From the NCBI RefSeq assembly GCF_000159315.1, contig NZ_GG669992.1, positions 385,528-449,527 of the forward strand: a DNA stretch of 64,000 bases, read 5' to 3'. Shown one piece after another: positions 32,306-62,380 of the stretch. The DNA comes from Lentilactobacillus hilgardii DSM 20176 = ATCC 8290. Its GTDB lineage: Bacteria > Bacillota > Bacilli > Lactobacillales > Lactobacillaceae. Every line of letters starts with the position of its first letter. Within the stretch, counting starts at the first letter, position 1. Both the position numbers and the translations under genes were made by a program. A model generated the notes under the pieces. The model was given only the letters and a program-made list of their open reading frames with translations, was not told the origin of the DNA and did no database searches.

Positions 32306-32334
32306 TTGACGGATAATTTCTAATATGTTTTAAT
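32306..32334 (+). promoter_or_regulatory. Promoter of leader/MFS unit
   Basis: TTGACG (32306-32311), 17 bases, TTTAAT (32329-32334). The same hexamers at the same spacing precede the aro leader at 38856, so the two leaders share promoter design. Confidence 0.65.
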
Positions 32335-32368
32335 AGATTCAACATCAAACAGGAAAGGAATTTTTACT

Positions 32369-32428
32369 ATGACGAAACTTGTTCAACAACTTAATGCCTA
32401 TTATTACGGCTATGCTTGGTTTAGATAG
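32369..32428 (+). CDS. Aromatic leader peptide 1 (MTKLVQQLNAYYYGYAWFR), 19 residues
   Basis: ATG 32369 to TAG 32426-32428, with AAAGGAA upstream. Codons 11-18 encode Tyr-Tyr-Tyr-Gly-Tyr-Ala-Trp-Phe, that is six aromatic residues of eight. A GC hairpin begins at the last base of the stop codon and a terminator follows about 120 bases later, before the MFS gene. This is the layout of a ribosome-stalling attenuator peptide sensing charged tRNA-Tyr, Trp or Phe. The peptide matches the second leader at 38916 (shared MTK, N, GYA-F and length), so the frame is under selection. It has no other likely role. Confidence 0.8.
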   Translation: MTKLVQQLNAYYYGYAWFR

Positions 32429-32584
32429 CGCCCGTGTAGATGCGGGCGCCTGTGCGTTCGCGTCTAACAGCAAAGCCGTTATTGGTTGTTGCCAGCTAGA
32501 CGCCAGAGTCTAGCTGGATAGGATAATTCTTTTACGCGAGTAGAAAATTAGCCAGCTGGATTCTCAAATCCAACTGGCTTTTTT
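32428..32584 (+). promoter_or_regulatory. Attenuator after leader peptide 1
   Basis: Elements in order: GCGCCCG/CGGGCGC hairpin (32428-32449); GCGTTCGCGTCT (32454-32465); CCAGCTAGAC (32492-32501) pairing perfectly with GTCTAGCTGG (32508-32517); terminator AGCCAGCTGGATT (32550-32562) with AATCCAACTGGCT (32567-32579) and T run. Alternative pairs exist: GCGTCTA with TAGACGC (32497-32503), and AGCTGG (32512-32517) with CCAGCT of the terminator's left arm. So pairing of the first two segments would free the third to block the terminator. Confidence 0.75.
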
Positions 32585-32610
32585 AATACTTTGGAATGGA
32601 GAGTGACATT

Positions 32611-33879
32611 ATGATGAATACAATGACAAAATCGAACAAACGGAGGCTTTCAATCAGCCTTTACTTAAACTACCTTGTTCATGGAATTGGGTTGATTATT
32701 TTAACTCAGAATATGCAGGCTCTTGGAAATTTCTGGAAAGTACCAATTGCAACTGTCTCCTACGTTATTTCAGGAATTGGAATCGGTAAATTAATCGCGT
32801 ATTTTTTATTTGGTTACCTATCGGATCGATTTGGCCGCCGTCAATTGGTTTTAACCGGAACCTTAAGCTATATGGTTTTCTTTATCGGGATCCCATTTAC
32901 TCATAACATTGCGATTGCATATGTATTTGCTATTATTGCCGGAGTTGCTAATTCGGCACTTGATTCGGGCACATACCCGACCTTTGTTGAAATGGGCGGT
33001 AATTCCAGCGCTTCAAACGTATTTATTAAAGCTTTTATGTCACTCGGTGAGTTTATCCTGCCATTGGCAATTGCGATGCTTGAAGCTAAGAGCTTATGGT
33101 TTGGCTGGTCATTTATCGGGACGTTGCTTGTGCTTGTTGCCAACCTGTTTATTCTTCGAGGTGCAAAGTTCCCCGAGATGAATCATGCTGATGAAGCTTT
33201 TATCGAAAATCACGAAAATACATCGAAATTAAGAAATACTATTGCAACAGTTTCACTCGCAATTTATGGCTATACGACAATGGCTATTATGATTTTATTT
33301 ACTCAGTGGATTAGTATGTTTGCGACAAACAATCTTGGTTATAGTTCATTAGTTTCTCACGGATTGTTATCTCTTTATAGTATTGGTTCAATTAGTGGTG
33401 TGATTTTCAACTTTATTCTTCTGAAAATGAAAGTGTCGGAAACTAAATTACTGGTTGCGATGAACGCGCTCTCACTACTTGCAATTTTTGTTGTCAGTCA
33501 TTCGGCCACTGTCCTGGTCACCTTTATCGCTGCGTTTGCATTTGGTTTTACTGCAGCAGGTGGGGTTATGCAGGTTGCCTTGAACGTTTTGCTGAAGATG
33601 TTTCCAAAACATAAGGGTATTATTACGGGTACCTACTTCACTTTTGGAAGTATTGCGACTTTTACAATTCCAATTGTGACTGGCTGGTTGTCAAAAACAA
33701 ATATTCAGTTAGTGATGAACTTTGATGTGATGATTGAGTTAGTCGGTACTATATTAGTTGTTCTTGCTGCAGTTTCGTTGAGTTCTGGCAGTGTATTTTC
33801 AAGCATTCGCCATATGGTAACAGGGTTACTGCACGTGCGAACATCAACGATTTCCAGTGATCAAACAAAAGATAACTAA
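32611..33879 (+). CDS. MFS transporter under aromatic attenuation (candidate shikimate/aromatic-compound permease)
   Basis: Twelve-helix major facilitator of 422 residues. The loop 2-3 motif reads GYLSDRFGRRQLVL, and the protein keeps MFS spacing throughout. ATG 32611 has GGAGAG seven bases upstream; the earlier ATG 32596 overlaps that site. The leader senses aromatic amino acids and aroD follows on the other strand, so the cargo is likely an aromatic amino acid, shikimate/quinate or a related precursor. No substrate-specific motif is visible, and the substrate remains inference. Confidence 0.8.
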   Translation: MMNTMTKSNKRRLSISLYLNYLVHGIGLIILTQNMQALGNFWKVPIATVSYVISGIGIGKLIAYFLFGYLSDRFGRRQLVLTGTLSYMVFFIGIPFTHNIAIAYVFAIIAGVANSALDSGTYPTFVEMGGNSSASNVFIKAFMSLGEFILPLAIAMLEAKSLWFGWSFIGTLLVLVANLFILRGAKFPEMNHADEAFIENHENTSKLRNTIATVSLAIYGYTTMAIMILFTQWISMFATNNLGYSSLVSHGLLSLYSIGSISGVIFNFILLKMKVSETKLLVAMNALSLLAIFVVSHSATVLVTFIAAFAFGFTAAGGVMQVALNVLLKMFPKHKGIITGTYFTFGSIATFTIPIVTGWLSKTNIQLVMNFDVMIELVGTILVVLAAVSLSSGSVFSSIRHMVTGLLHVRTSTISSDQTKDN

Positions 33880-33900
33880 AAATGACGTATAAAATAATGG

Positions 33901-33935
33901 AGGCTGCGACAAAAATAATTTGTCCAGCCTTTTTT
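33901..33935 (+). terminator. Terminator of the MFS gene
   Basis: AGGCTGCGACAAA (33901-33913) pairs with TTTGTCCAGCCT (33919-33930) with one mismatch, then T. The GCGACAAA/TTTGTCC core recurs at 56870. Confidence 0.8.
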
Positions 33936-34091
33936 AATATCATCACGACTATTATTGAAAAAAATGTGAAAAAGAAAGCAACATTCTGCCATGAAATCGA
34001 ATTACCCCACTATCTCTACTCAAAATATATTTGGATAAACCAATTCACTCTGAAAGTTAATTGCCTCTTGTTCCACTCTTATTTTTTACAA

Positions 34092-34847
34092 TCAGTTCAA
34101 AGTGGCCATGCCTTTTCTGACAGTTTCCACCGTTAATTGACCAGGTGCAGATGCCTCTGCAACGGTTGCAAATGAAAGTGTTGATCCAAAGAGCGGACCG
34201 GTTACCCTGCTAACCTTACCCAAATCTCCCATAGACATTGTAATAATGGGAATTTCAAGTTCGCGGTTTGCTTTTTCGGTAGCGTTTAATAAAGTCAAAA
34301 CATCCTTGGAAGTATGTGGCATAACAGCAATCTTACCGATATCGGCATTTCTTTCCTGCATTCGTTTTAACTTTGAAATGATCTCAGTTTCATCAGGCGT
34401 TGATTGAAAATCGTGATTACTTAAGATTACTGGGATATTTTGATGGTGAGCTAAATTAATCAAAAAATCAACCGTGGCTTTATTGCGATTTAATTCAATA
34501 TCGAGCATATCAGTTAGCCGATTTTCTAAAAGCCATCGATAGATAGAGAAGTACTCTGCATCTTCAAGGCTTGAGACACCGCCTTCATGAGCGGTCCTAA
34601 AGGTCGTTAAAAGCGGTGTATTCCCAATAAGTGACTGAATATGGTCGACGGTGTCTAGATAGTTCTCATGATCAAGTACATCGCGATCATAGTCAATACG
34701 CCATTCTATGACGTCTGGATGGTGATTAAGTGCTTGTTTTACTTGACTAATAATGTCAGTACTAATTTTACCGGTAATCGGGACAGCAATATTCGTTTTA
34801 CCGGATTCAAATGTTGTATCTTTTACTTGAACAATTTTCCCAGCCAT
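34092..34847 (-). CDS. aroD: 3-dehydroquinate dehydratase, type I
   Basis: Third step of the shikimate pathway: converts 3-dehydroquinate to 3-dehydroshikimate through a Schiff base. The 251-residue length is right for type I. The N-terminal EWRIDYDRD block, the catalytic His in LSNHDFQSTP and the Schiff-base Lys in IGKIAVMPH are all present. The C-terminal block SMGDLGKVSRVTG closes the barrel. Start ATG 34847 follows AAGGAGA. It lies apart from the aro operon at 39 kb, on the opposite strand. Its upstream region is only 169 bases and shows no leader of the aro type. Confidence 0.94.
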   Translation of the reverse strand: MAGKIVQVKDTTFESGKTNIAVPITGKISTDIISQVKQALNHHPDVIEWRIDYDRDVLDHENYLDTVDHIQSLIGNTPLLTTFRTAHEGGVSSLEDAEYFSIYRWLLENRLTDMLDIELNRNKATVDFLINLAHHQNIPVILSNHDFQSTPDETEIISKLKRMQERNADIGKIAVMPHTSKDVLTLLNATEKANRELEIPIITMSMGDLGKVSRVTGPLFGSTLSFATVAEASAPGQLTVETVRKGMATLN

Positions 34848-35016
34848 TATAGAAATCTCCTTACAGTTTTATTGAATTAAGTTTAGCAAGACAATGAGAT
34901 AAACACAATTTAAAATAATGGTTAATTCTATTAAACCGGGTAATTTAGTAGTATTCTTAAGGCGAATATGATAGATGAACAGGGTTATCATTAAACTGTT
35001 TGGAGGCGATTCTGAT

Positions 35017-35829
35017 ATGGGGAAATTAGCAACTAGTGTTAGTATTTCCGGTGGTATGATCGGCTTTATGCTACTCACCGGTATTGTCATGTTTTTAATT
35101 CCGATTGGAACTTATTGGGGATTGAAAAGGCATTATAAACTGGTTTCAACACCAGTATGGGTTGGGATTGCAGTTTTTATTGTTGCAGTACTGATTTTGG
35201 AACGAATCCTTCACATGATTATTCTGCAACCATCTGCGGACGGTTCTATCGCTTTGGCAACTCATCATCCATACATGTACGTTGCCTATGGCGCCTTGGT
35301 GGCTGGTATTTTTGAAGAAACAGGACGTTTTTTCGGCTTTCGTTATCTCAAAAAACGGGTTTCCGGCTTTGGAACAGCGATTGCGTACGGGATTGGTCAT
35401 GGTGGCATTGAAATGATTTTAATTGGGACGATGGGAATGGTTAACCTTGTTGTTATGAGTGTGGCAATTAATTCGCGAAACGCTGCAGTTTTATCTAAAT
35501 TACCAAGTGGGACGATTCATTCTCTGATTAGTCATGCAGGTGCTGCGACTACTAGTTCCTTTTTTGAACGAATTGCCGCCTTTATTATTCAAATCTTATT
35601 ATCCATTATTGTATGGGCCTCGGTTAATTATGTGGGAAAGATTTGGTTATATCCTTTGGCCATTGGCCTACATGCGTTAATTGATATGCCGGCAGCAATG
35701 TTTCAGGCTGGCATAATATCTAACGAATTAACTGTTGAGATTGTTTTATGGATTTCTGTCTTGGCAATGGGCGTATTTGTGTATCTATATATTGGTAAGT
35801 TGCGGAAAAGTCTTGTCACTACTAGTTAA
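35017..35829 (+). CDS. YhfC-family intramembrane metalloprotease-like protein
   Basis: Integral membrane protein of 270 residues with about seven hydrophobic segments. The segment GIFEETGRFFGF carries the adjacent Glu pair and Arg expected of CPBP-like intramembrane proteases, followed by GIGHGGIEM, with further His residues at the end (GLHALID). This pattern matches YhfC/DUF2324. I choose ATG 35017, which has TGGAGGCG upstream, over 34975. Proteolytic activity of this family is not well proven. The gene is monocistronic. Confidence 0.8.
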   Translation: MGKLATSVSISGGMIGFMLLTGIVMFLIPIGTYWGLKRHYKLVSTPVWVGIAVFIVAVLILERILHMIILQPSADGSIALATHHPYMYVAYGALVAGIFEETGRFFGFRYLKKRVSGFGTAIAYGIGHGGIEMILIGTMGMVNLVVMSVAINSRNAAVLSKLPSGTIHSLISHAGAATTSSFFERIAAFIIQILLSIIVWASVNYVGKIWLYPLAIGLHALIDMPAAMFQAGIISNELTVEIVLWISVLAMGVFVYLYIGKLRKSLVTTS

Positions 35830-35854
35830 TTAAGCTAATAAATTAAAGTAAATA

Positions 35855-35930
35855 AAAGACTGTCATTTATATTTCAAAATTGTTTAAGAAGATAAGCAAT
35901 TTTGAATCGTTAATCAATGACGGTCTTTTT
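35855..35930 (+). terminator. Two-part bidirectional terminator
   Basis: Outer arms AAAAGACTGTCATT (35855-35868) and AATGACGGTCTTTT (35916-35929) enclose an inner hairpin CAAAATTG/CAATTTTG (35875-35904). It separates converging genes. Confidence 0.78.
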
Positions 35931-35937
35931 ATCTGAA

Positions 35938-36990
35938 TTAGAAGCCGCGGAAATCGTTTCTGCCAAAGTATTGTAAATTGGCTAATAGCGGTTTTTCATT
36001 TAATTGCTCCAAAGTAACAAACGTGTAACCGCGCTTTTTTAAAGAACGGATAATTTGAGGAACGGCGGCTACCGAAGTTGCGTGAATATCATGCATCAAA
36101 ATGATAGAGCCGTTGGTTGTTGTGGAAAGTACATGGTTAACTGTTTTAGCGGTATTGAGGTAAGACCAATCTCTGGAATCAACGGACCAACGAACGATTG
36201 GACGATCGTACAAATTACCAATCCGTGAATTAACAGCGCCATATGGTGGTCGGATATAATATGGAATAGTGCCAGTTGCTTTATAAATAGCCGCATCGGT
36301 TAGTGAAATCTGTCGAAGTGCTTTGGCATTGGTCAGATCGGTTAACTGTGGATGGCTCCAAGAATGATTTCCGATTTGATCACCATATTTCAGGACAAGT
36401 CGGCTAATATTTGGATATTTAATAACGCTGCTGCCAACTTCAAAGAAAGTTGCCGGTACCTTGTATTTTTTTAAGGTTTTTAGCAACCTTGGCGTTAAAG
36501 TTGGATCCGGGCCATCATCGAATGTGAGTGCAACAACCTTTTTGGCGGTTTTCGGTTTAACAAAGTCGTATTTAGCTGGCATATAACGGTTTAAAATGAT
36601 GCCGGTGAGTTTGCTGAGTGGAATAGCAACATTCTTTACGCCATAGTTATTTTTGGTCAAATGGATTGTTAAGTGTTCATTGTCGAGTGTAAAATTTTTC
36701 GCGGTTAATCGTTTTGGCAGTGGTAAATAAACCAGTTGCTGAACTTGCTTACCTGTTAGTTTATGAGTTTCAGCCAATGTTGTTCGGGTCAATTGTCGGA
36801 TAGTGCCTAAACGTTTCGTACTATTGTTCGTTATGTCACCGTACGTTAGTCGTTTCGTTGTGCTGGTAGTCTTTGTTGCTTTAGTCGGCGTTGATGCTGC
36901 AAAGACAGGTTGATTAGCAATAGCTGCTAATGTGAAGCCAAATAATGCAGCAACACTCAGCCGCCGAACTAATGAATATTTTCGAATCAT
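35938..36990 (-). CDS. Secreted polysaccharide deacetylase (NodB domain)
   Basis: Extracellular hydrolase of 350 residues that removes acetyl groups from cell-wall sugars such as N-acetylglucosamine. Residues 1-31 form a signal peptide with an AXA-type end (PVFA), then a linker rich in Thr/Lys, a beta-type region at 60-150 and the NodB domain. Catalytic motifs are TFDDGPDP, IGNHSWSHP, RPPYGA, WSVDSRDW and ILMHDI. All expected metal ligands (Asp, His, His) are there. Start ATG 36990 follows GGGGGG. It could give lysozyme resistance by peptidoglycan deacetylation, though the substrate is not shown. Confidence 0.9.
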   Translation of the reverse strand: MIRKYSLVRRLSVAALFGFTLAAIANQPVFAASTPTKATKTTSTTKRLTYGDITNNSTKRLGTIRQLTRTTLAETHKLTGKQVQQLVYLPLPKRLTAKNFTLDNEHLTIHLTKNNYGVKNVAIPLSKLTGIILNRYMPAKYDFVKPKTAKKVVALTFDDGPDPTLTPRLLKTLKKYKVPATFFEVGSSVIKYPNISRLVLKYGDQIGNHSWSHPQLTDLTNAKALRQISLTDAAIYKATGTIPYYIRPPYGAVNSRIGNLYDRPIVRWSVDSRDWSYLNTAKTVNHVLSTTTNGSIILMHDIHATSVAAVPQIIRSLKKRGYTFVTLEQLNEKPLLANLQYFGRNDFRGF

Positions 36991-37133
36991 AAAAAATCCC
37001 CCCAATATGGATAACTGATGTTTCTAAATCCAGTTTCATTTTTACATTTCGGTTATGAGATGTCAACGAGAACGGAAGCTGAGTCGAAAATCGGGATGGA
37101 AAAATGGATAAATAATAAATTGATAGTTAATGG

Positions 37134-37162
37134 TTGACAAAATGATATTTTCGGAATAAAGT
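37134..37162 (+). promoter_or_regulatory. Promoter of the T-box/amidohydrolase unit
   Basis: TTGACA (37134-37139) and TAAAGT (37157-37162) with 17 bases between them, just upstream of the leader. Confidence 0.72.
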
Positions 37163-37167
37163 ACCGT

Positions 37168-37447
37168 TAACATTAAAAACAAGTAAAAAATACTTAGAAA
37201 AGTTGAGGAGTCGATTTTAAGAAATCCTAAGAGAGTGTCACTATCTGGGAAGACATGATTTCTTAATGATTCAAAGTCAACTTCGAGTATTGTAATTCGT
37301 AAGAGTTATGCGGGTGCGCCCATTACAGCGTCAACGTTATACCGTTAATCCGGTCGTACGTGAGAGACGAAATTTATTTCGTAAGTAAGGTGGTACCGCG
37401 TAGAAGCGTCCTTTCAGAAGACTATTTCTGATTGGGCGCTTTTTTTA
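37168..37447 (+). promoter_or_regulatory. T-box leader, probably phenylalanine-specific
   Basis: T-box GGTGGTACCGCG at 37389-37400, then terminator arms AGCGTCC and GGGCGCT (37405-37440) with T run. Stem I is visible as AAGAAATC/GATTTCTT with a basal AGTTGA/TCAACT helix. The internal loop on the 3' strand is TGATTCAAAG, with TTC (Phe) at 37270-37272 followed by A, and TGGT suits A73 of tRNA-Phe. Alternative triplets (ATG, GAT) cannot be wholly excluded. It would couple the amidohydrolase to Phe shortage. Confidence 0.85.
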
Positions 37448-37548
37448 TTGGATTTAAGTATCACGTAGGCAATGATTTTACTACTAAAAAGAAAACACTA
37501 AGGGCAATTAATTGATAAGCGATTTTGGAACTGAAAGGAAGATTTATT

Positions 37549-38814
37549 ATGACAACGACTAACTATGTGAATGCAGCAATTTATAATCATGATCAACAGA
37601 AATTCATTTTCAACCAACACATGATTGTGGATGAAAATACTGGAAAAATTATTGAAGTGGGTAACGGGCGTACAACCCGACAAGTTTGTGATGACGTTGT
37701 CGATCTTAATGGCAGATTTGTGATGCCGGGTATTATGAACGCACACACCCATATAACCGATATGCCAACCTATTGGTGGCATAACGGTGAGGAGAAACGT
37801 CATCCGGACTCCCGCGAGGTTTGCACAATGTTTGCGATTCGAAATATGCAGGATGCCCTTTCACATGGCATTACATATATTCGTAACGTAGGTGCAGAAT
37901 TTGATATAGATGTTGAAATCAAGAAAATGCAGGAAAAAGGTTGGATTAAAGGACCAAAAATCATGACCTCTGGTCGAGCATTTTCAATTACAGGTGGGCA
38001 TGATTCTGAAAGTACTTATGAGGTTGACGGTATTGATGAGGTTAGAAAAGGCGTTCGTCAGGCTTTGAAGAACGGTGTTGATAACATTAAAATGATGGTT
38101 ACCGGTGGTGTTCTAAAGAATGGTGAGACACCGGATGATATTCAGTTTACTTTGGAAGAGGCACGGACTGCTGTATCTGAGGCACATCATAAAGGCAAAA
38201 CAGCTGCTGCACATGCGCAGGGAAATGCCGGAATTAAAGAGGCGGTGGCTGCCGGTTTTGATACGATTGAGCACGCTTTTGATATTGACGATGAGGCCAT
38301 CACAATGATGAAAGAACACGGGACTATCATTGTTCCAACGATGAACGCCATGTTTGCAATCTATAAATATGGTCGGGGTGTCGTTCCGGACTGGGCACGT
38401 GAAAAGGTCATTTTGAATATCAAAAAACATTTTATGAGTATTGCTAAAGCTGCAAAAGCCGGCATCCCTATTGCAATGGGGACGGATGCCGGTACACCGT
38501 TTAATGGTTTTCAAAACGAGAGTGCCTATGAAATGCAGCTTTATGTCGAAAAAGCTGCAATGACACCAGCGCAAGCCATTGATGCCGCGACTATTAATTG
38601 TGCAAAGGCAATGCATATTGATCAGGAATATGGGCAGATTGCTGCTGGAAACTATGCAGACTTTCTTGTCATGAATGAAAATCCGATAGATGATATCAGT
38701 GTGGTTGGCCATGATAAAGACGTTTATCAAAATGGAAAGAGAGTTCATGCTCAAGAAGTGGTTAATGAGCTAAAAGCCACCCAGAAAATTAAAAAAATAT
38801 CCGCAGCAATTTAG
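37549..38814 (+). CDS. Amidohydrolase family protein (Xaa-Pro dipeptidase/imidazolonepropionase-like)
   Basis: Cytosolic metal-dependent hydrolase of 421 residues in the TIM-barrel amidohydrolase superfamily. Metal ligands are visible in NAHTHITDMP, AAAHAQG, TIEHAFDID and MGTDAGTP, and the small beta-sandwich is split between the N- and C-terminal ends as usual. Start ATG 37549 follows AAAGGAAG. Related enzymes hydrolyse N-acyl amino acids or X-Pro dipeptides. Control by a probable Phe T-box, and its place next to the aro operon, suggest it releases an aromatic amino acid from a conjugate. That is inference. Confidence 0.82.
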   Translation: MTTTNYVNAAIYNHDQQKFIFNQHMIVDENTGKIIEVGNGRTTRQVCDDVVDLNGRFVMPGIMNAHTHITDMPTYWWHNGEEKRHPDSREVCTMFAIRNMQDALSHGITYIRNVGAEFDIDVEIKKMQEKGWIKGPKIMTSGRAFSITGGHDSESTYEVDGIDEVRKGVRQALKNGVDNIKMMVTGGVLKNGETPDDIQFTLEEARTAVSEAHHKGKTAAAHAQGNAGIKEAVAAGFDTIEHAFDIDDEAITMMKEHGTIIVPTMNAMFAIYKYGRGVVPDWAREKVILNIKKHFMSIAKAAKAGIPIAMGTDAGTPFNGFQNESAYEMQLYVEKAAMTPAQAIDAATINCAKAMHIDQEYGQIAAGNYADFLVMNENPIDDISVVGHDKDVYQNGKRVHAQEVVNELKATQKIKKISAAI

Positions 38815-38855
38815 CGACAAGTCGCGATTAAAAAAAGATGAGAGAATTATTAGGG

Positions 38856-38884
38856 TTGACGGAACTTCCCTAATGTGGTTTAAT
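38856..38884 (+). promoter_or_regulatory. Promoter of the aro leader
   Basis: TTGACG (38856-38861), 17 bases, TTTAAT (38879-38884), the same hexamers and spacing as at 32306. Confidence 0.65.
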
Positions 38885-38915
38885 AATGACAATCTAATGA
38901 GAGGAATTGATATTA

Positions 38916-38975
38916 ATGACAAAGCATATATCTCATGTAAATACTTTTTATTTTGGCTATGCCTACTTTATGTAG
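38916..38975 (+). CDS. Aromatic leader peptide 2 (MTKHISHVNTFYFGYAYFM), 19 residues
   Basis: ATG 38916 to TAG 38973-38975 behind GAGGAA. Codons 11-18 encode Phe-Tyr-Phe-Gly-Tyr-Ala-Tyr-Phe, a dense Phe/Tyr block. The chain has the same length, MTK start, Asn9 and GYA-F core as leader peptide 1, but carries Phe where the first has Tyr and lacks Trp. A hairpin and attenuator follow before the aro genes. The aro operon here contains tyrA and chorismate mutase, products of which lead to Tyr and Phe, so the codon content matches the end products. Confidence 0.82.
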   Translation: MTKHISHVNTFYFGYAYFM

Positions 38976-38976
38976 T

Positions 38977-39134
38977 GTCCGCAGCGATGCGGACGCAATT
39001 CACGCGTTCGCGTCTGAGTGGTGCAGAGTCAATGCTTTGTTGTTGACCGCTAGACGCAAAAGTCTGGCTGGGTCAACTACCAATTCTTTACGAGTTTAGT
39101 AAACCGGCTGGATATCATTCTAGCCGGTTTTTTT
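38977..39134 (+). promoter_or_regulatory. Attenuator of the aro operon
   Basis: GTCCGC/GCGGAC hairpin (38977-38994) starts two bases after the stop codon; GCGTTCGCGTCT (39004-39015) is identical to that of the first leader; GTTGACC plus CTAGAC (39042-39055) pair with GTCTGG plus GGTCAAC (39062-39077); terminator ACCGGCT (39103-39109) with AGCCGGT (39122-39128) and a T run. GCGTCT can alternatively pair with AGACGC (39052-39057), and GGCTGG with CCGGCT of the terminator through wobble pairs. Confidence 0.78.
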
Positions 39135-39160: not shown

Positions 39161-39475
39161 ATGTTGACGAAAACAGATCCAGCGTGGAACAGTTCAAAGG
39201 AATTGACCAAAGCCAGAAAACAGATCAATCAACTTGATGAATCAATTGTGGCGTTATTGGCGAAACGGTTTGAAACAGCTGCCAGAATTGGCAGTATCAA
39301 AGAGAAGCAAGGGCTACCGGTTTTTGATCCGACTCGTGAAGATGCCGTACTTGAAAGGGTCACATCATTTGATCCTAATAGAGATACCAGACAATATCTC
39401 TGGAACATTTATCGATCGATTATGGAAAATACCAGGCAATTTGAACACGATTCAAAAGAAAAGCCTAAAAAATAG
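39161..39475 (+). CDS. Chorismate mutase (AroQ type)
   Basis: Converts chorismate to prephenate, the branch point to Phe and Tyr. A 104-residue, all-helical single-domain protein of the AroQ class: the N-terminal helix has KARKQINQLDESIVALLAKR with the active-site Arg and the conserved LD, then AARIGSIKEKQGLPVFDPTRE, both canonical. The ATG 39161 lies just after the attenuator with GAGGTGGG upstream. It opens the aro operon and is followed by aroC after 12 bases. Confidence 0.92.
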   Translation: MLTKTDPAWNSSKELTKARKQINQLDESIVALLAKRFETAARIGSIKEKQGLPVFDPTREDAVLERVTSFDPNRDTRQYLWNIYRSIMENTRQFEHDSKEKPKK

Positions 39476-39487
39476 GGGGAAAATACA

Positions 39488-40657
39488 TTGCTTAACTACT
39501 TAACCGCAGGAGAATCTCACGGGCCACAATTAACAGGAATAATTGAAGGCGTTCCTTCCGGCCTACGTTTGGATATTGATGAAATTAATGAACAGTTAAA
39601 GAAACGTCAAGGCGGATATGGGCGAGGCAATCGCCAAAAGATCGAGCATGATCAGGTCACGGTTGTTGGCGGCGTTCGGCACGGGATCACCTTGGGATCG
39701 CCAATTGCCCTGGTCGTTAATAACCGTGACCACGCTCATTGGAATGAGATCATGAATCCAACAAGTCCAGAAACACCGGAAAATACATTACGAAAAGTGG
39801 AACGACCACGCCCCGGTCACGCGGATTTAGTCGGTGGGATGAAATATCGTCACCATGATCTAAGAAATGTGCTTGAACGTTCGTCAGCTCGTGAAACGGC
39901 CATTCGAGTAGCTGTAGGATCTGTTTGCAAACAACTATTAAAGCAAGTCGGTATTCAGCTTACTGGTTATGTTGAACAAATTGGGCCGATTTCCACGGAT
40001 GATAAACCGGAATTAAATGTTTCTAAAATTGAATCAGAGATTAATCATAATGATTTGCGAATTATCGATCAGTCCAAAGTAGAGCAGATTCATGAATTGA
40101 TTGATAAGACCAGAAAAGACGGTGATACGCTTGGCGGCATCATTCGAGTAGTCGCTACAAATGTTCCGGCCGGACTTGGCAGCTATATTAGTTGGGATAC
40201 CAAACTAGACGGTAAATTGGCTGCTGCTGTTATGGGAGTTAACGCGATGAAGGGCGTTGAAATTGGTGATGGTTTTAAAGCAGCTACCAGTTATGGCAGT
40301 CAGGTAATGGATGAGATTGACTGGAGTAAAGAAGACGGGTTTTCCAGGGAAACGGATCATCTTGGCGGCTTTGAGGGTGGTATGACTAACGGGATGCCTA
40401 TTATTGTAAAAGCAGCGATGAAGCCGATTCCAACCCTGTATAAACCACTACAGAGTGTCGATATTAATACCAAAGAAATTAAAAAAGCCAATGTTGAACG
40501 TTCGGATACAACAGCAATTGTTCCAGCATCAATTGTGATTGAAAGTGTTGTTGCAATTGAGCTGGCAAAGGCATTGACGGACAAATTTGATGGTGATAAT
40601 GTTCAGCGAATGCAGGAACAAGTTGCTGCGTACAGAAATGAATTGAAAAATTTCTAG
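39488..40657 (+). CDS. aroC: Chorismate synthase
   Basis: Final step of the shikimate pathway: forms chorismate from EPSP using reduced FMN. It has 389 residues with the three family signatures: AGESHGPQLTGI at the N-terminus, the RPGHADLVGGMKY and RSSARETAIRVAVG blocks, and GGFEGGMTNGMPI. The start is TTG 39488 with GGGGG upstream. It is followed 11 bases later by aroA in the same operon. Confidence 0.95.
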   Translation: MLNYLTAGESHGPQLTGIIEGVPSGLRLDIDEINEQLKKRQGGYGRGNRQKIEHDQVTVVGGVRHGITLGSPIALVVNNRDHAHWNEIMNPTSPETPENTLRKVERPRPGHADLVGGMKYRHHDLRNVLERSSARETAIRVAVGSVCKQLLKQVGIQLTGYVEQIGPISTDDKPELNVSKIESEINHNDLRIIDQSKVEQIHELIDKTRKDGDTLGGIIRVVATNVPAGLGSYISWDTKLDGKLAAAVMGVNAMKGVEIGDGFKAATSYGSQVMDEIDWSKEDGFSRETDHLGGFEGGMTNGMPIIVKAAMKPIPTLYKPLQSVDINTKEIKKANVERSDTTAIVPASIVIESVVAIELAKALTDKFDGDNVQRMQEQVAAYRNELKNF

Positions 40658-40668
40658 GAGGGAAGCTA

Positions 40669-41973
40669 ATGAAAAAGTTATCAGATAAACTCAAAACCGG
40701 GCTGCATGGTGAATTATCGGTTCCCGGCGATAAGAGTATTTCTCATCGGGGAATTATGTTTGGCGCTGTCAGTGAAGGCCGGACGACCTTACATCATTTC
40801 TTAACTGCCGAGGATTGCTTATCTACTTTAAAAGCTTTCCAACAGCTTGGTGTACCAATTAAACGCGATGGTGAAACGGTTGAAATTGAGGGTGTCGGCC
40901 TTCATGGATTAAAACAATCGGGTAACCCTTTGGATATGGGAAATTCCGGTACAACAACCCGGTTAATTATGGGATTATTGGCTGGACAAAATTTTGATTC
41001 GACTTTATTTGGAGATGATTCATTATCAAAGCGTCCTATGAAGCGGGTAAGCGAACCGCTAGCCGAAATGGGTGCTGACATTTGTGTGACGGATGGGCAT
41101 TTGCCGGCAAGAATTCATGGGCAGAAGTTGCATGCAATTGATTATCAGTTGAAGGTTGCCAGTGCTCAGGTGAAGAGTGCGTTGATTCTGGCGGCTATTC
41201 AGGCTGATCAACCTTCTACATTAATTGAAAAATTGCCTACTCGAAATCATACGGAAAAAATGTTAAATGCGTTTGGCGCCAATATTCAAACAATGGCCGA
41301 TAACGTCACTATTAAGGTCAATCCACAACCGAAACTAACAGGAATCGATTTAACGGTTCCCGGAGATATGTCTTCGGCAGCTTTCTTCCTGGTTGCAGCT
41401 ACTTTAGTTCCTAATTCAAAATTGACATTGAAGAATGTTGGGGTTAATGAAACGCGAACCGGTTTGCTGTCAATCTTAAAACGAATGGGTGGCAAGGTGA
41501 TCGAACGCCATCGTAATGATTCCGGTGAACCAACTGCAGATTTGGTTGTTTCCAGCGCTGAATTAAAACCAATTGAAATTGGTGCGGAAGAAATTCCGGC
41601 CGTTATTGATGAATTACCGTTGGTCGCTTTGTTGGCTGCAAAAGCAAATGGCATCAGTAAGATTACCGGTGCCGGCGAACTACGTGTTAAAGAAACAGAT
41701 CGGATTGCGGCTGTTGTTCAGGAGTTTTCTAAGCTGGGAATTGCCATCCGTGAATTACCAGACGGTTTTGTGATTGACGGTGCCAAGCCTTGGCACGTTG
41801 AAAAGACCAAATTGGATAGTCACGGAGATCATCGAATCGGGATGACACTTGCCATCGCATCATTATTGTTGGATGAGCAGCTTCAGCTTAATGGTGCAGA
41901 GAGTGTTAATATTTCATATCCTGAGTTTTTTGATGATTTGGCAAGCGTTACAAATATTGAAAGTTATTCATAA
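40669..41973 (+). CDS. aroA: 5-enolpyruvylshikimate-3-phosphate synthase
   Basis: Transfers enolpyruvate from PEP to shikimate-3-phosphate. The 434-residue protein has the two-domain family pattern with PGDKSISHRGIMFG (Lys and Arg of the active site), LDMGNSGTTTRL, SKRPMKRVSEPL and GELRVKETDRI, as well as DSHGDHRIGM near the end. Start ATG 40669 follows GGAGGG. Gene order aroC-aroA-tyrA-aroK-aroE is tight, with 11 to 30 bases between genes. Confidence 0.95.
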   Translation: MKKLSDKLKTGLHGELSVPGDKSISHRGIMFGAVSEGRTTLHHFLTAEDCLSTLKAFQQLGVPIKRDGETVEIEGVGLHGLKQSGNPLDMGNSGTTTRLIMGLLAGQNFDSTLFGDDSLSKRPMKRVSEPLAEMGADICVTDGHLPARIHGQKLHAIDYQLKVASAQVKSALILAAIQADQPSTLIEKLPTRNHTEKMLNAFGANIQTMADNVTIKVNPQPKLTGIDLTVPGDMSSAAFFLVAATLVPNSKLTLKNVGVNETRTGLLSILKRMGGKVIERHRNDSGEPTADLVVSSAELKPIEIGAEEIPAVIDELPLVALLAAKANGISKITGAGELRVKETDRIAAVVQEFSKLGIAIRELPDGFVIDGAKPWHVEKTKLDSHGDHRIGMTLAIASLLLDEQLQLNGAESVNISYPEFFDDLASVTNIESYS

Positions 41974-41990
41974 ATTGAGGTGGAAAAGTC

Positions 41991-42848
41991 ATGACAACAG
42001 TGCTGATTAGTGGATTGGGGTTAATTGGCAGCTCAATTGCAAGGGTGATTAAACAAGAAAATTCGGAAATTGAAATCATCGGTAGTGATCCTGATGATGA
42101 ATCCGCCCAGTTTTTACTTGAGCATCACTTGATTGATGACCGACAAGTATTTACAAATGCGGTTCCCTTAGCAGACTTTATCATTTTAGCCGGACCGGTT
42201 TCCGTGGTTATTAGACAGATCAATGAATTGATAACCTTACCGCTGAAACCGGATGTATTTGTAACGGATGTTGGTAGTACCAAAGAAGCAATTATGGATG
42301 CCGCCAAACCTTTAATAAGTGAAGGTGTTAATTTTGTCGGGGGGCATCCAATGGCTGGATCGGACAAATCGGGAAGTCGATCCGGAAAGCTGGATTTGTT
42401 TGATCATGCAGTTTATTTTGTTGTTGGTGGGACAACAGCCAATCCCAAATTGGTGCAGTTTCAGAATCTTTTAAGTGCTGCTCATCTTCGTTGGCAAGTG
42501 ATTTCCGCATCGTTACATGATCAGTTAGTCAGTGAGATAAGCCACGTTCCCCATGTCATCGCGGTGACACTGGTTAACACGATTGCCGACGACCTTAGTC
42601 GTAATCCGGATGCACTTAAAGCTGCGGCAGGGGGCTTTCGAGATACCACTCGAATTGCTGCTTCAGATCCAACTATGTGGACAGCCATTATGATGAGCAA
42701 TGCGGAATTGATCAATCACGAGCTATCCAAATTTCAACAACATCTGTCTCATTTTCAAACAGCACTTGAAGCACGTGATGAAGAAGAGATTAAAAATATT
42801 TTCAAGAATGCACAAGCTGTCAGAAAATCATTAGATGAAAGGAAATGA
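41991..42848 (+). CDS. tyrA: Prephenate dehydrogenase
   Basis: Oxidises prephenate to 4-hydroxyphenylpyruvate for tyrosine, with NAD+. It has 285 residues: N-terminal Rossmann motif GLGLIGSSIA, catalytic block GGHPMAGSDKSG with the His, and the helical C-terminal dimer domain. The ACT regulatory domain found in some homologues is absent, so feedback inhibition through that domain is not expected; control at the leader may compensate. ATG 41991 follows GAGGTGG. Confidence 0.94.
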   Translation: MTTVLISGLGLIGSSIARVIKQENSEIEIIGSDPDDESAQFLLEHHLIDDRQVFTNAVPLADFIILAGPVSVVIRQINELITLPLKPDVFVTDVGSTKEAIMDAAKPLISEGVNFVGGHPMAGSDKSGSRSGKLDLFDHAVYFVVGGTTANPKLVQFQNLLSAAHLRWQVISASLHDQLVSEISHVPHVIAVTLVNTIADDLSRNPDALKAAAGGFRDTTRIAASDPTMWTAIMMSNAELINHELSKFQQHLSHFQTALEARDEEEIKNIFKNAQAVRKSLDERK

Positions 42849-42854
42849 CAATTA

Positions 42855-43361
42855 ATGAAAGCAATTTTAGTTGGATTTATGGGAAGTGGTAAAACCACCG
42901 TTGGTCGATTGCTCGCAAACCAAATTCAGGTACCTTATCATGACTTGGACGATGTGATCGTTCATAATGCCGGCAAGTCGATTCAGCAAATATTTGACGA
43001 TCAGGGCGAGAATACATTTAGAATGTTGGAGCATGATGCCTTGATGAACTCGCTTGGAGATGAAGGAATATTGGGAACAGGTGGCGGGACACCTATTCAA
43101 CCCGCTAATTTTGAACTGTTGCTTCAGACGACCGTCCCCGTTGTATTATTGGATGTTCTTCCCGAAACGATTTTGGCCCGTCTAAGAGGTGATAGTGGTC
43201 GTCCACTAGCTAAAAAGTTAGGGTTGGCTGGTTTGATTGATTTAAAGCATGAACGGGATGACAAATATAATCAGGTGAGTGACATCCGTATTGCGACGGA
43301 TAGCTTAACGCCTGAACAAGTCGTTGAGAAAATTATGCAGGAACTTTCAGTATTGAAATAG
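42855..43361 (+). CDS. aroK: Shikimate kinase
   Basis: Phosphorylates shikimate at the 3-OH with ATP. A 168-residue P-loop kinase: Walker A GFMGSGKTTVGRLL at residues 7-20, shikimate-binding DLDDVI and GTGGGTP, and the lid RGDSGRPLAK. Start ATG 42855 is behind GAAAGGA, and the gene follows tyrA after six bases. Confidence 0.94.
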   Translation: MKAILVGFMGSGKTTVGRLLANQIQVPYHDLDDVIVHNAGKSIQQIFDDQGENTFRMLEHDALMNSLGDEGILGTGGGTPIQPANFELLLQTTVPVVLLDVLPETILARLRGDSGRPLAKKLGLAGLIDLKHERDDKYNQVSDIRIATDSLTPEQVVEKIMQELSVLK

Positions 43362-43390
43362 TAAGTTATTAACGAGAGAGTGGTGTCATT

Positions 43391-44263
43391 ATGATTGACG
43401 GTCATACAAAACTTTATGGATTATTGGCGCACCCGGCTGCTCATAGTTTGTCGCCCTTAATACATAACACAAGCTTTAAAGTTACAGGAATTAATGGTGT
43501 TTATTTGGCTTTTGACGTCATGCCTAATGAGCTGCAAACATCTGTTGATGCAATTAGGACAATGGCAATTGGTGGTGTGAACCTATCAATGCCCTTAAAA
43601 ACAACTGTGATTCCGTTACTTGATGAGATTACATCAAGGGCCGAGCGGCTAAATGCGGTCAATACGGTTATTAATCGGGATGGTAAGCTGGTCGGTGATA
43701 CAACAGATGGACAAGGCTTTATTGATGCGCTGAAGTATCAGAATGTTAGTGTTGAGGATAAAACGCTGACTGTTTTGGGTGCAGGTGGTGCAGGCAGATC
43801 GATTATTGCCGCTGCTGTTGAAGCCGGTGCTGCCAAAATCAATGTGTTTAAAAGACAAAATCAGACTTTTAAGTCACGAAAAGAACAACTGGAAAGCTGG
43901 TCCAGCGTGATTTCAGTAATCCCTTACGAGGATGATGACGCAATGCAGGAGTCAGTTGCGTCAAGTCAGATTGTCAGTAATTCAACGAATATTGGCATGA
44001 GTCAAGATAATCATTTACCGATTAGCCAAGCGGTGTTGGCCAGATTAACACCGCATCATGTTGTAACGGATGCCATTTATTTTCCGCTTGAAACGCCCTT
44101 TGTAAAGGCTGCTAAAGATAGAGGATGCCAAACATTTAATGGCATTGGTATGTTGGTACACCAGGCAGCAGGATCCTTCTTTGAATGGACTGGACAAAAA
44201 ATGCCGGTTAACGACGTTATTAGTGCCGTAAATCAAGAAATTGTTAAAAGAGAGCACGATTAA
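43391..44263 (+). CDS. aroE: Shikimate dehydrogenase
   Basis: Reduces 3-dehydroshikimate to shikimate with NADPH. It has 290 residues. The substrate site is HSLSPLIHN; the catalytic Lys lies in NLSMPLKTTV; then NAVNTVI, the cofactor motif GAGGAGRS at about 128-135 and the final NGIGMLVHQAA helix. It is the last gene of the aro operon. The operon lacks DAHP synthase, aroB and prephenate dehydratase, and aroD lies at 34 kb, so the remaining steps must be encoded elsewhere. Confidence 0.94.
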   Translation: MIDGHTKLYGLLAHPAAHSLSPLIHNTSFKVTGINGVYLAFDVMPNELQTSVDAIRTMAIGGVNLSMPLKTTVIPLLDEITSRAERLNAVNTVINRDGKLVGDTTDGQGFIDALKYQNVSVEDKTLTVLGAGGAGRSIIAAAVEAGAAKINVFKRQNQTFKSRKEQLESWSSVISVIPYEDDDAMQESVASSQIVSNSTNIGMSQDNHLPISQAVLARLTPHHVVTDAIYFPLETPFVKAAKDRGCQTFNGIGMLVHQAAGSFFEWTGQKMPVNDVISAVNQEIVKREHD

Positions 44264-44357
44264 GTGTTTACTAAAAAATAATTAACAACTATTCTCCCCG
44301 CCACTAACTATTTGGTGGTATATTTAATCTATTCACTAGGTAAATAGAATTGATGAC

Positions 44358-44490
44358 ATTAGGGGAGCCCACCGGCTGAGACGTGATTAATATGCGAACC
44401 CTTTGAACCTGATCTGGTTAAATCCAGCGTAGGAAAACTGTCGGCTTGGGACCCTCCTTCTGTTGTCGTTATGCTCGAAACGGACGGAGG
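44358..44490 (+). promoter_or_regulatory. TPP riboswitch (THI element), apparently translational
   Basis: The conserved blocks GGGGAGCCC, GGCTGAGAC, ACCCTTTGAACCTGATCTGG and CCAGCGTAGGAAA lie at 44362-44435. Downstream, CCTCCTTCTGTT (44454-44465) can pair with AACGGACGGAGG (44480-44491) of the thiW ribosome site, with one mismatch and one wobble. No T-run terminator was seen, so blocking of translation is the likelier mechanism. Confidence 0.92.
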
Positions 44491-61909: not shown

Positions 61910-62149
61910 GTCATTTTATGCAAAAAAAAGCCATATATGGATTTTTATGAAGAAATATTTTTTTTTATGAATATATATTAAAATGAAAGAAAGCTTGTAA
62001 ATCGCGTTATATATACATAAGAAAATGACCGATATTCAAATTTTTGTCATTCTTGGATAAATAAACATTTTCAAAAACTTTTTTAAAAATAAGATTGTGT
62101 TTTCTTCAAAAATGTCATATGATTTTAACAACGAATTGAAAGACCTTTA

Positions 62150-62246
62150 ATATTAACCCCGTGAGGTTAAGAAGGAATCGGTGAACCTAAGTCTAACTTG
62201 GGAGAAACTACAACCTCTTTACCCAACGGCGGTAAAGAGGTTTTTT
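62150..62246 (+). promoter_or_regulatory. PyrR-dependent attenuator of the pyr operon
   Basis: AACCCCGTGAGGTT (62155-62168) sits in a hairpin flanked by TTAACC/GGTTAA and matches 13 of 14 positions of the PyrR-binding consensus ARUCCNGNGAGGYU. A CCTAAGT/ACTTGGG helix follows, and a terminator, CCTCTTTACC (62214-62223) with GGTAAAGAGG (62231-62240) and TTTTTT. PyrR with UMP would stop transcription here. Confidence 0.85.
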
Positions 62247-62380
62247 AATGCAAATATGTTGACTGTAACGACGATTTAATTGTTTCCGTGAGAGCAAAAC
62301 GTCTAAAATAGTGATTTCATTCCACTAAAGGGCGCTTTGCGAACACGGCAAGGCGCTTAACTTTTTAGGAGGAATTCACT

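Follow-up and report, generated by a model that had tools for sequence, protein, structure and literature searches.

Why should two quite different sets of genes in one genome carry the same kind of leader, and what would such a leader do? The question is raised by a stretch of 64,000 nucleotides (nt) of Lentilactobacillus hilgardii DSM 20176 = ATCC 8290, hereafter the window, in which leader 1 (32306-32584) precedes a transporter gene and leader 2 (38856-39134) precedes an aro operon. Each leader contains a short open reading frame (ORF) crowded with codons for tyrosine (Tyr), phenylalanine (Phe) and tryptophan (Trp), and we consider it very probable that each is a ribosome-mediated transcription attenuator. 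The likeness to pheL and trpL is strongly supported by sequence comparison, in that the peptide frame is conserved, both of two alternative RNA states covary and the codons go with the downstream gene. Ribosome stalling, switching in cells and the amino acids sensed (Tyr and Phe by leader 2, Tyr with Phe and Trp by leader 1) are what we infer.

Two leaders of one build

Both leaders, and the genes behind them, are on the forward strand. The promoter of leader 1 (32306-32334) consists of TTGACG at 32306-32311, 17 nt and TTTAAT at 32329-32334, and it aligns with the promoters of leader 2 and of relatives; that of leader 2 (38856-38884) reads TTGACG at 38856-38861, 17 nt and TTTAAT at 38879-38884. 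Behind an upstream Shine-Dalgarno (SD) sequence, each leader has an ORF of 19 codons, at 32369-32428 for leader peptide 1, MTKLVQQLNAYYYGYAWFR, and at 38916-38975 for leader peptide 2, MTKHISHVNTFYFGYAYFM. The ORF is followed by a GC-rich hairpin whose first base pair takes in the last base of the stop codon. This hairpin, helix 1:2, lies at 32428-32449 in leader 1 (segment 1, 32428-32435; segment 2, 32439-32449) and at 38975-38996 in leader 2 (segment 1, 38975-38982; segment 2, 38986-38996), and the stem scan and covariation described below support it. Segment 3, at 32454-32465 and 39004-39015, is GCGTTCGCGTCT in both leaders, and this sequence occurs exactly twice in the genome; in leader 1 its partner is either segment 2, over 11 base pairs (bp), or segment 4, over 6 bp. 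Segments 4 and 5 form hairpin 4:5 at 32495-32517 (32495-32503 and 32508-32517) and at 39049-39071 (39049-39057 and 39062-39071), segment 5 being also the strand that pairs with segment 6 as the anti-terminator. An intrinsic terminator, 6:7, closes each leader with a T-run, at 32550-32584 (segment 6, 32550-32560; segment 7, 32569-32579) and at 39102-39134 (segment 6, 39102-39112; segment 7, 39119-39129). A CTAGAC/GTCT hairpin is likewise common to both, and the mean column identity of the two leaders is 77%. The promoters, 19-codon aromatic peptides, stop-codon hairpins, identical segment, CTAGAC/GTCT hairpin and terminators that an earlier sequence-only reading had described are all present where it placed them; its ATTCTTT-ACG-AG segment is real as well, but only loosely conserved.

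Clustered aromatic codons in a short ORF that looks translated, as expected of an attenuator, are thus found in both leaders, and more often than by chance. When ORFs were defined by an SD sequence, a length of 14-30 codons and at least six aromatic residues among the last nine, a search of both strands gave two in the whole window, and none in 5000 dinucleotide shuffles of the 106-nt peptide region of each leader. Relatives of both leaders are present within Lentilactobacillus, and these also support both leader peptides.

The gene behind leader 1 (32596-33879) encodes an MFS transporter (Pfam PF07690). The operon behind leader 2 (39161-44263), assigned with Pfam and NCBIfam, consists of genes for chorismate mutase (aroQ), aroC, aroA, tyrA, aroK and aroE, so that leader 2 stands before genes that make the amino acids it encodes. 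For leader 1 a hint of the same kind may come from relatives of the MFS transporter: a C-terminal chorismate mutase domain was seen in all five longer proteins tested, from several genera (loci L097, L118, L091, L119 and L096). This fusion ties an orphan MFS transporter to prephenate metabolism. Peptide frame and RNA elements had been described as conserved despite the differing genes, and this proved right, the frame being kept across genera.

A relay of seven RNA segments

Thirty leaders of Lentilactobacillus were aligned (alignment A2), leaving out G006t, whose terminator half lies elsewhere, and G046x; for G023x, with a broken peptide frame, the stop position was set from the alignment column. 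A stem scan without prior structure, with a minimum of five stacked columns and of 75% paired rows, found 26 stems, including all six helices of the relay: 1:2 (8 bp), opening at the final base of the stop codon, 2:3 (11 bp), 3:4 (5 bp listed, 6 used), 4:5 (7 bp), 5:6 (10 bp) and the terminator 6:7 (11 bp). Five of them rank among the seven longest stems; 3:4 is short. The segments form a chain of seven in which each can pair with the preceding or the following one, and since adjacent helices share a segment, the whole chain can adopt either of two states, one of termination (2:3, 4:5 and 6:7) and one of anti-termination (1:2, 3:4 and 5:6).

The six helices are 94-99.6% paired in the 30 leaders. 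Double-change cells number 24 in the terminator state against 7.6 in shuffles, and 16 in the anti-terminator state against 4.1, values reached by none of 500 shuffles in either case, and both states also exceed slid controls. Mutually exclusive helices with one intrinsic terminator, conserved with covariation, are what an attenuator would have.

In the mechanism that we propose, RNA polymerase would transcribe the 19-codon ORF, the last nine codons of which are mostly for Tyr, Phe or Trp. With charged aromatic tRNAs plentiful, a ribosome would reach the stop codon and cover segment 1; 2:3, 4:5 and 6:7 would then pair, and the terminator 6:7 would halt transcription. With an aromatic tRNA scarce, the ribosome would stall on codons 11-15, upstream of segment 1, so that 1:2, 3:4 and 5:6 would form in place of the terminator and the aro operon or the transporter gene would be read. 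The geometry suits attenuation, because a ribosome whose A site is on codons 11-15 does not reach segment 1 and one at the stop codon covers it, given the known size of the ribosome footprint.

Distribution in Lactobacillaceae and beyond

A covariance model built from the termination state only (R1) has matches at E<=0.01 in 188 of 397 family genomes, which represent 31 of 40 genera, and it finds two in the genome of the window. A covariance search of family genomes and Rfam had been put forward as a check by the sequence-only reading, and it did find covariation and peptide-frame conservation in relatives. The same reading had called this control rare in Lactobacillaceae, where T-boxes would do the work; the count of genomes contradicts it, and T-boxes coexist in the genome of the window, with 46 matches at E<=0.001, 13 of them above the Rfam cut-off. 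The T-box model (RF00230) has no match over leader 1 or leader 2.

Forty R1 matches were retrieved, picked for genus spread. Among 80 named MFS loci, 73 have an R1 leader on the gene strand at E<=0.001, including loci of Lactiplantibacillus plantarum, Liquorilactobacillus, Secundilactobacillus, Loigolactobacillus, Levilactobacillus, Bombilactobacillus, Apilactobacillus, Limosilactobacillus, Leuconostoc and Sporolactobacillus. Related leaders are common both in the family and elsewhere in the order. An ORF with at least four aromatic residues accompanies 72 of the 76 R1 hits examined from these loci, the exceptions being L184 (frame broken), L205 (start unusable), L218 (weak match) and L230 (three aromatics). 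In the 75 hits with any ORF, the stop codon is at model offset 29 in 59 and at offset 26 in nine. Typical peptide endings are YYYGYAWFR, YYYGFAYFR, YYFGLVYFR and FYYGYYFFR; 66 of 72 leaders have Phe at position -2, and 66 of 72 have Arg, Lys, Met or Ser at -1.

Some leaders depart from this plan. L045 and L184 (Lentilactobacillus kosonis) and L205 (Liquorilactobacillus cacaonum) are candidates for decaying leaders, since their peptides have a broken frame or no usable start while the RNA is still recognised by the model. The MFS leader of genome G006 (L039/L058) is interrupted after the anti-terminator strand and before the terminator, with the match to the terminator end about 1.5 kb off, presumably due to an insertion.

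The wider set also gives a view of the anti-terminator that does not depend on the model. Alignment A4 (84 matches, 82 distinct, from many genera, one reverse-strand row, L192 2926-3063, being kept) was made to the terminator state only. The anti-terminator helices, absent from the model, are nevertheless 93.3% paired. Their double-change cells number 123, where shuffles give 28.4, and none of the 500 shuffles comes up to this state in any of five measures. The terminator state, to which the alignment had been fitted, is 95.6% paired with 224 double-change cells against 54.6.

Folding calculations and the switch

Several results weigh against a switch of this kind. Within the 30 Lentilactobacillus leaders, the number of anti-terminator pairs with a double change is four, which 45 of 500 shuffles matched, and helix 3:4 has no such pair. 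The stem scan gave other stems too, for example 5 with 7 (9 bp), and two stems that the relay leaves unexplained (A2 columns 88-95:216-222 and 8-13:90-96). In A4, 3:4 and 4:5 were not recovered in L205, L213, L214, L216, L217, L229, L232 and L238, nor 5:6 and 6:7 in L128 and L225. Equilibrium partition-function folding with ribosome masks favours 2:3 with 4:5 at any ribosome position in most of the 30 leaders. Co-transcriptional folding was simulated with a crude, Kinwalker-like scheme of our own design, a weak method by its Escherichia coli controls: it reproduced pheL, did not reproduce trpL and was wrong for hisL at the stop codon. No setting of this scheme makes leader 2 switch, and two of the three make it terminate when the ribosome is stalled and not when it is at the stop codon; only 3-5 of the 30 Lentilactobacillus leaders form helix 5:6 with a stalled ribosome, and none of 30 with the ribosome at the stop codon; and among 106 distinct other leaders 60 show no switch and 11 a reversed one. 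Without any ribosome the terminator still forms in 60 of the 106. The expectation that the relay reads through by default when no ribosome is present was dropped on this result.

On the other side, leader 1 shows the predicted switch at two of three settings, with 5:6 itself not forming, and 35 of the 106 leaders switch as predicted (sign test p 0.0005, for leaders that are not independent). The terminator forms in 64 of these leaders with the ribosome at the stop codon and in 63 with it one codon before, then in 45 at -4, 41 at -7, 40 at -8 and 52 at -9. This simulated dip over the aromatic codons is modest and in the expected direction, and the simulations as a whole would back the switch weakly. 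The earlier comparison with pheL and trpL stands as far as peptide frame, covariation and the match of codons to genes are concerned. On the presumed step from stall to switch, equilibrium folding is negative in most leaders and the simulations are mixed for the two window leaders.

The same numbers invite the suggestion that the leaders are a plain terminator beside an unrelated small gene, given the strong terminator and the similar yield with no ribosome and with one at the stop codon. We find this scarcely credible, since a plain terminator would work without helices 1:2, 2:3, 3:4 and 5:6 and wherever the stop codon lay, and the helices and the stop position are conserved with covariation.

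Two Rfam families read again

In relaxed scans these leaders show links, all below threshold, to two Rfam families: RF04312 (trpB motif) and RF02863 (Enterococcus sRNA 2410). The window leaders themselves reach no Rfam cut-off in gathering or relaxed scans: for RF04312, leader 2 scores 24.9 bits (E 1.3; gathering 59) and leader 1 is absent from the list, and for RF02863 (gathering 61 bits) neither leader is listed up to E 5. At seven other loci the RF02863 model gives 32-53 bits. The loci of both families that were read are the best-scoring ones plus a chosen spread, and are not a random sample.

RF04312 matches 159 of 295 genomes of the order (52 above the cut-off), 8 of 151 of the class (5 above) and 3 of 348 of the phylum (1 above). 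A Trp leader ORF, defined as SD-led, 11-36 codons long, ending beside the motif and with Trp within its last 12 codons, is present at 70 of 77 distinct loci (78 read), where shuffles lead to an expectation of 1.5. These leaders typically contain WQNWRR or WQSR, and in nearly all loci read the model begins 3' of the peptide. The seven misses comprise a histidine (His) leader (L134), Tyr or Tyr/Phe leaders (L135, L308), an SD-less WQSR leader (L307) and, from outside the order, three matches of low score (L136, L278 and L279; 38-41.5 bits), which have no leader and were set aside as likely false positives. R1 also matches L308, L135 and L134. Among 11 downstream genes tested, eight encode ABC_sub_bind proteins (seven after Trp leaders, one after the Tyr/Phe leader L135), one a PALP enzyme (tryptophan synthase beta family), one a protein like histidyl-tRNA synthetase (HisRS), after the His leader, and one a reverse transcriptase. 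The stop-codon helix 1:2 is unproven in this family, because only 26 of 75 loci beat shuffles at 5%, though 54 of 75 have at least 7 bp. The top RF04312 match listed (L252, 86.6 bits) is the one with the reverse-transcriptase gene, 546 nt downstream.

More than 900 examples of the trpB motif are reported; its authors class this orphan riboswitch candidate as a strong one and leave a classic attenuator open (PMC11109978). Were the leaders studied here metabolite riboswitches, the RNA 3' of the peptide would bind an aromatic amino acid or a shikimate intermediate and the short ORF would be incidental. The structured RNA is indeed well conserved. The ORF, however, is kept in frame across genera with its SD sequence and a fixed stop position, its codons vary with the gene served on a constant RNA plan, and Trp ORFs accompany RF04312 far beyond the shuffled expectation; a metabolite riboswitch is accordingly a quite improbable account of these leaders.

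RF02863 matches 107 of 198 genomes (48 above the cut-off). All 59 loci read have a leader peptide of the Tyr/Phe type with at least three aromatics in the last 10 residues, FSYFR occurs in 47 of them and an SD sequence by our own rule in 55, and at all 59 the match begins inside the leader peptide. With R1, 22 of 26 RF02863 loci give a match at E<0.01 on the strand of the leader, but in at least three the register is wrong. The ten downstream genes tested are ABC_sub_bind (five) and aroE (five).

This family is catalogued as a small RNA of Enterococcus, and the passages of PMC5593968 on E. faecium sRNA_2410 class it as such, with 195 nt by RNA-seq and two transcripts on Northern blots. The transcript fits a terminated leader, and is tied to RF02863 by name and length, not by sequence comparison. 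A precedent for action in trans is the attenuator RNA rnTrpL, as cited in PMC8546594. That the terminated leaders work mainly in trans is nonetheless highly improbable in our estimate, since the covariation of the anti-terminator and the position before aro and transport genes demand a role in cis; a role in trans could be additional to it. RF02863 and RF04312 appear to be parts of an attenuator device that have been filed as something else.

Codons and the genes served

Eight leaders before transporter genes are of a Phe type and hold 40 Phe, 3 Tyr and no Trp codons, whereas the remaining 89 leaders hold 193 Phe, 354 Tyr and 31 Trp and are Tyr-rich. As the sequences are related, these counts describe an association and are not a test on independent samples. 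The Phe-type leaders terminate in FAFSFFFR or FNFSFFFR, and three of three tested (L098, L111, L126) precede PF04392 ABC_sub_bind transporters; the other five were classed by likeness. Tyr and Phe codons precede aro genes, including aroA-first and aroE-first operons judged by eye, Trp codons the trpB-type gene and His codons the HisRS-like gene. Leaders ahead of ABC_sub_bind transporters may be of the Phe, Tyr/Phe or Trp kind, those of the RF02863 type mixing Tyr and Phe. A comparison of downstream genes had also been proposed as a check, and MFS, aro, ABC_sub_bind and related genes were found behind the leaders. The His leader of L134 has four consecutive His codons (HHHH) ahead of its histidyl-tRNA synthetase-like gene, and belongs to a different order of the class.

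The peptides raise a further alternative, regulated nascent-chain arrest, for which TnaC is the model: a conserved C-terminal core would hold the ribosome in response to a free amino acid, not an uncharged tRNA. The peptide end is conserved beyond its aromatics, at positions -2 and -1 and in the FSYFR ending, and a ribosome held at the stop codon would likewise favour termination. Yet Tyr, Phe and Trp replace one another at several sites and the core differs between leaders (FAFSFFFR, YYYGFAYFR, WQNWRR, HHHH), which is what the sensing of codons would lead one to expect, and the C-terminal conservation may in part reflect RNA pairing. Arrest of the nascent chain is in our view unlikely. The pairing in question joins GCUAU in the peptide region with AUAGC across the stop codon (A2 columns 11-15 with 30-34, in a mean of 97% of rows), a possible RNA cause of the conserved Tyr codon and the Arg/Lys-stop ending.

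Returning to attenuation by the ribosome, we lean slightly towards the view that relay attenuators gated by the stop codon form a single homologous superfamily in Lactobacillales and some neighbouring Bacilli. Its ancestor would have been copied from gene to gene and given new codons (Tyr/Phe, Phe, Trp, His) with the RNA plan kept, RF02863 and RF04312 would be branches of the superfamily, and the codons would label the substrates of unannotated ABC_sub_bind and MFS transporters. If so, leader-peptide attenuation would be an ordinary, family-wide control of aromatic amino acids in lactic acid bacteria, beside the many T-boxes that the genome of the window holds; there would be a mechanism for the orphan riboswitch candidate RF04312 and for the annotated small RNA family RF02863; and codon content would hint at the substrates of transporters whose family names are uninformative.

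Comparison with known systems

The E. coli leaders pheL, trpL and hisL likewise combine, upstream of biosynthesis genes, a short peptide in which the regulated amino acid is frequent with helices that exclude each other and an intrinsic terminator. Compared with pheL and trpL the window leaders are longer, with seven segments, six overlapping helices starting on the stop codon and mixed Tyr/Phe/Trp codons; hisL is also multi-segment. RF04312 resembles them in a hairpin whose right arm is the anti-terminator, followed by a terminator, and in Trp leader peptides upstream; it differs in that the window leaders score below its cut-off and the model starts 3' of the peptide. RF02863 shares the Tyr/Phe leader peptide and the ABC_sub_bind or aroE gene downstream, but is filed as a small RNA, and the window leaders are not listed.

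Other comparisons are more distant. The element uORFC-13-1, before aroF of Acholeplasma, joins a Phe upstream ORF and a terminator to a shikimate-pathway gene, and attenuation is suggested in the passage that describes it (PMC8632094). It is known only from Acholeplasma and environmental sequences, precedes another gene, and is likened here by description and not by structure. RF01743, the Leu/phe leader, is attributed to Lactococcus lactis in a table row of PMC2864571; it is a Lactobacillales leader motif named for Leu and Phe, but has no match in the window at gathering, nor in the relaxed leader scans. His leader peptides of bacilli before hisZ and hisS, as presented in PMC2965389, illustrate that in Firmicutes the place of a T-box can be taken by an ordinary leader peptide; they concern histidine, and the main text of that paper contains none of the words aromatic, phenylalanine and tryptophan. 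A putative attenuator ahead of the aro operon of L. plantarum appears in Table 7 of PMC1173090, after the Merino database. Its gene order fits the Lactiplantibacillus loci found here (ORF, aroC, ORF, aroA, ...), but it is a database prediction, and the passages of PMC1173090 on it name no leader peptide, family or mechanism.

In the open-licence literature, with few subscription papers, no description was found of the leader family or its relay of seven segments, nor of leader peptides for RF04312 or RF02863. Ribosome-mediated attenuation itself is classical; what a specialist would not expect is how widely the leader family extends in the order, and that two Rfam families are read anew.

Neighbouring elements

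A small protein is encoded in the aro operons of L097 (third downstream ORF, 175 residues) and L110 (first, 176 residues); that of L097 matches no Pfam family, and the beginning of its sequence looks by eye like prephenate dehydratase. Between the two leaders of the window, a T-box at 37186-37416 (85.9 bits, slightly under the 93 of Rfam) precedes an amidohydrolase gene (37525-38814). A TPP riboswitch (44351-44453) and a PyrR binding site (62140-62249) are also present in the window, both above the Rfam cut-offs.

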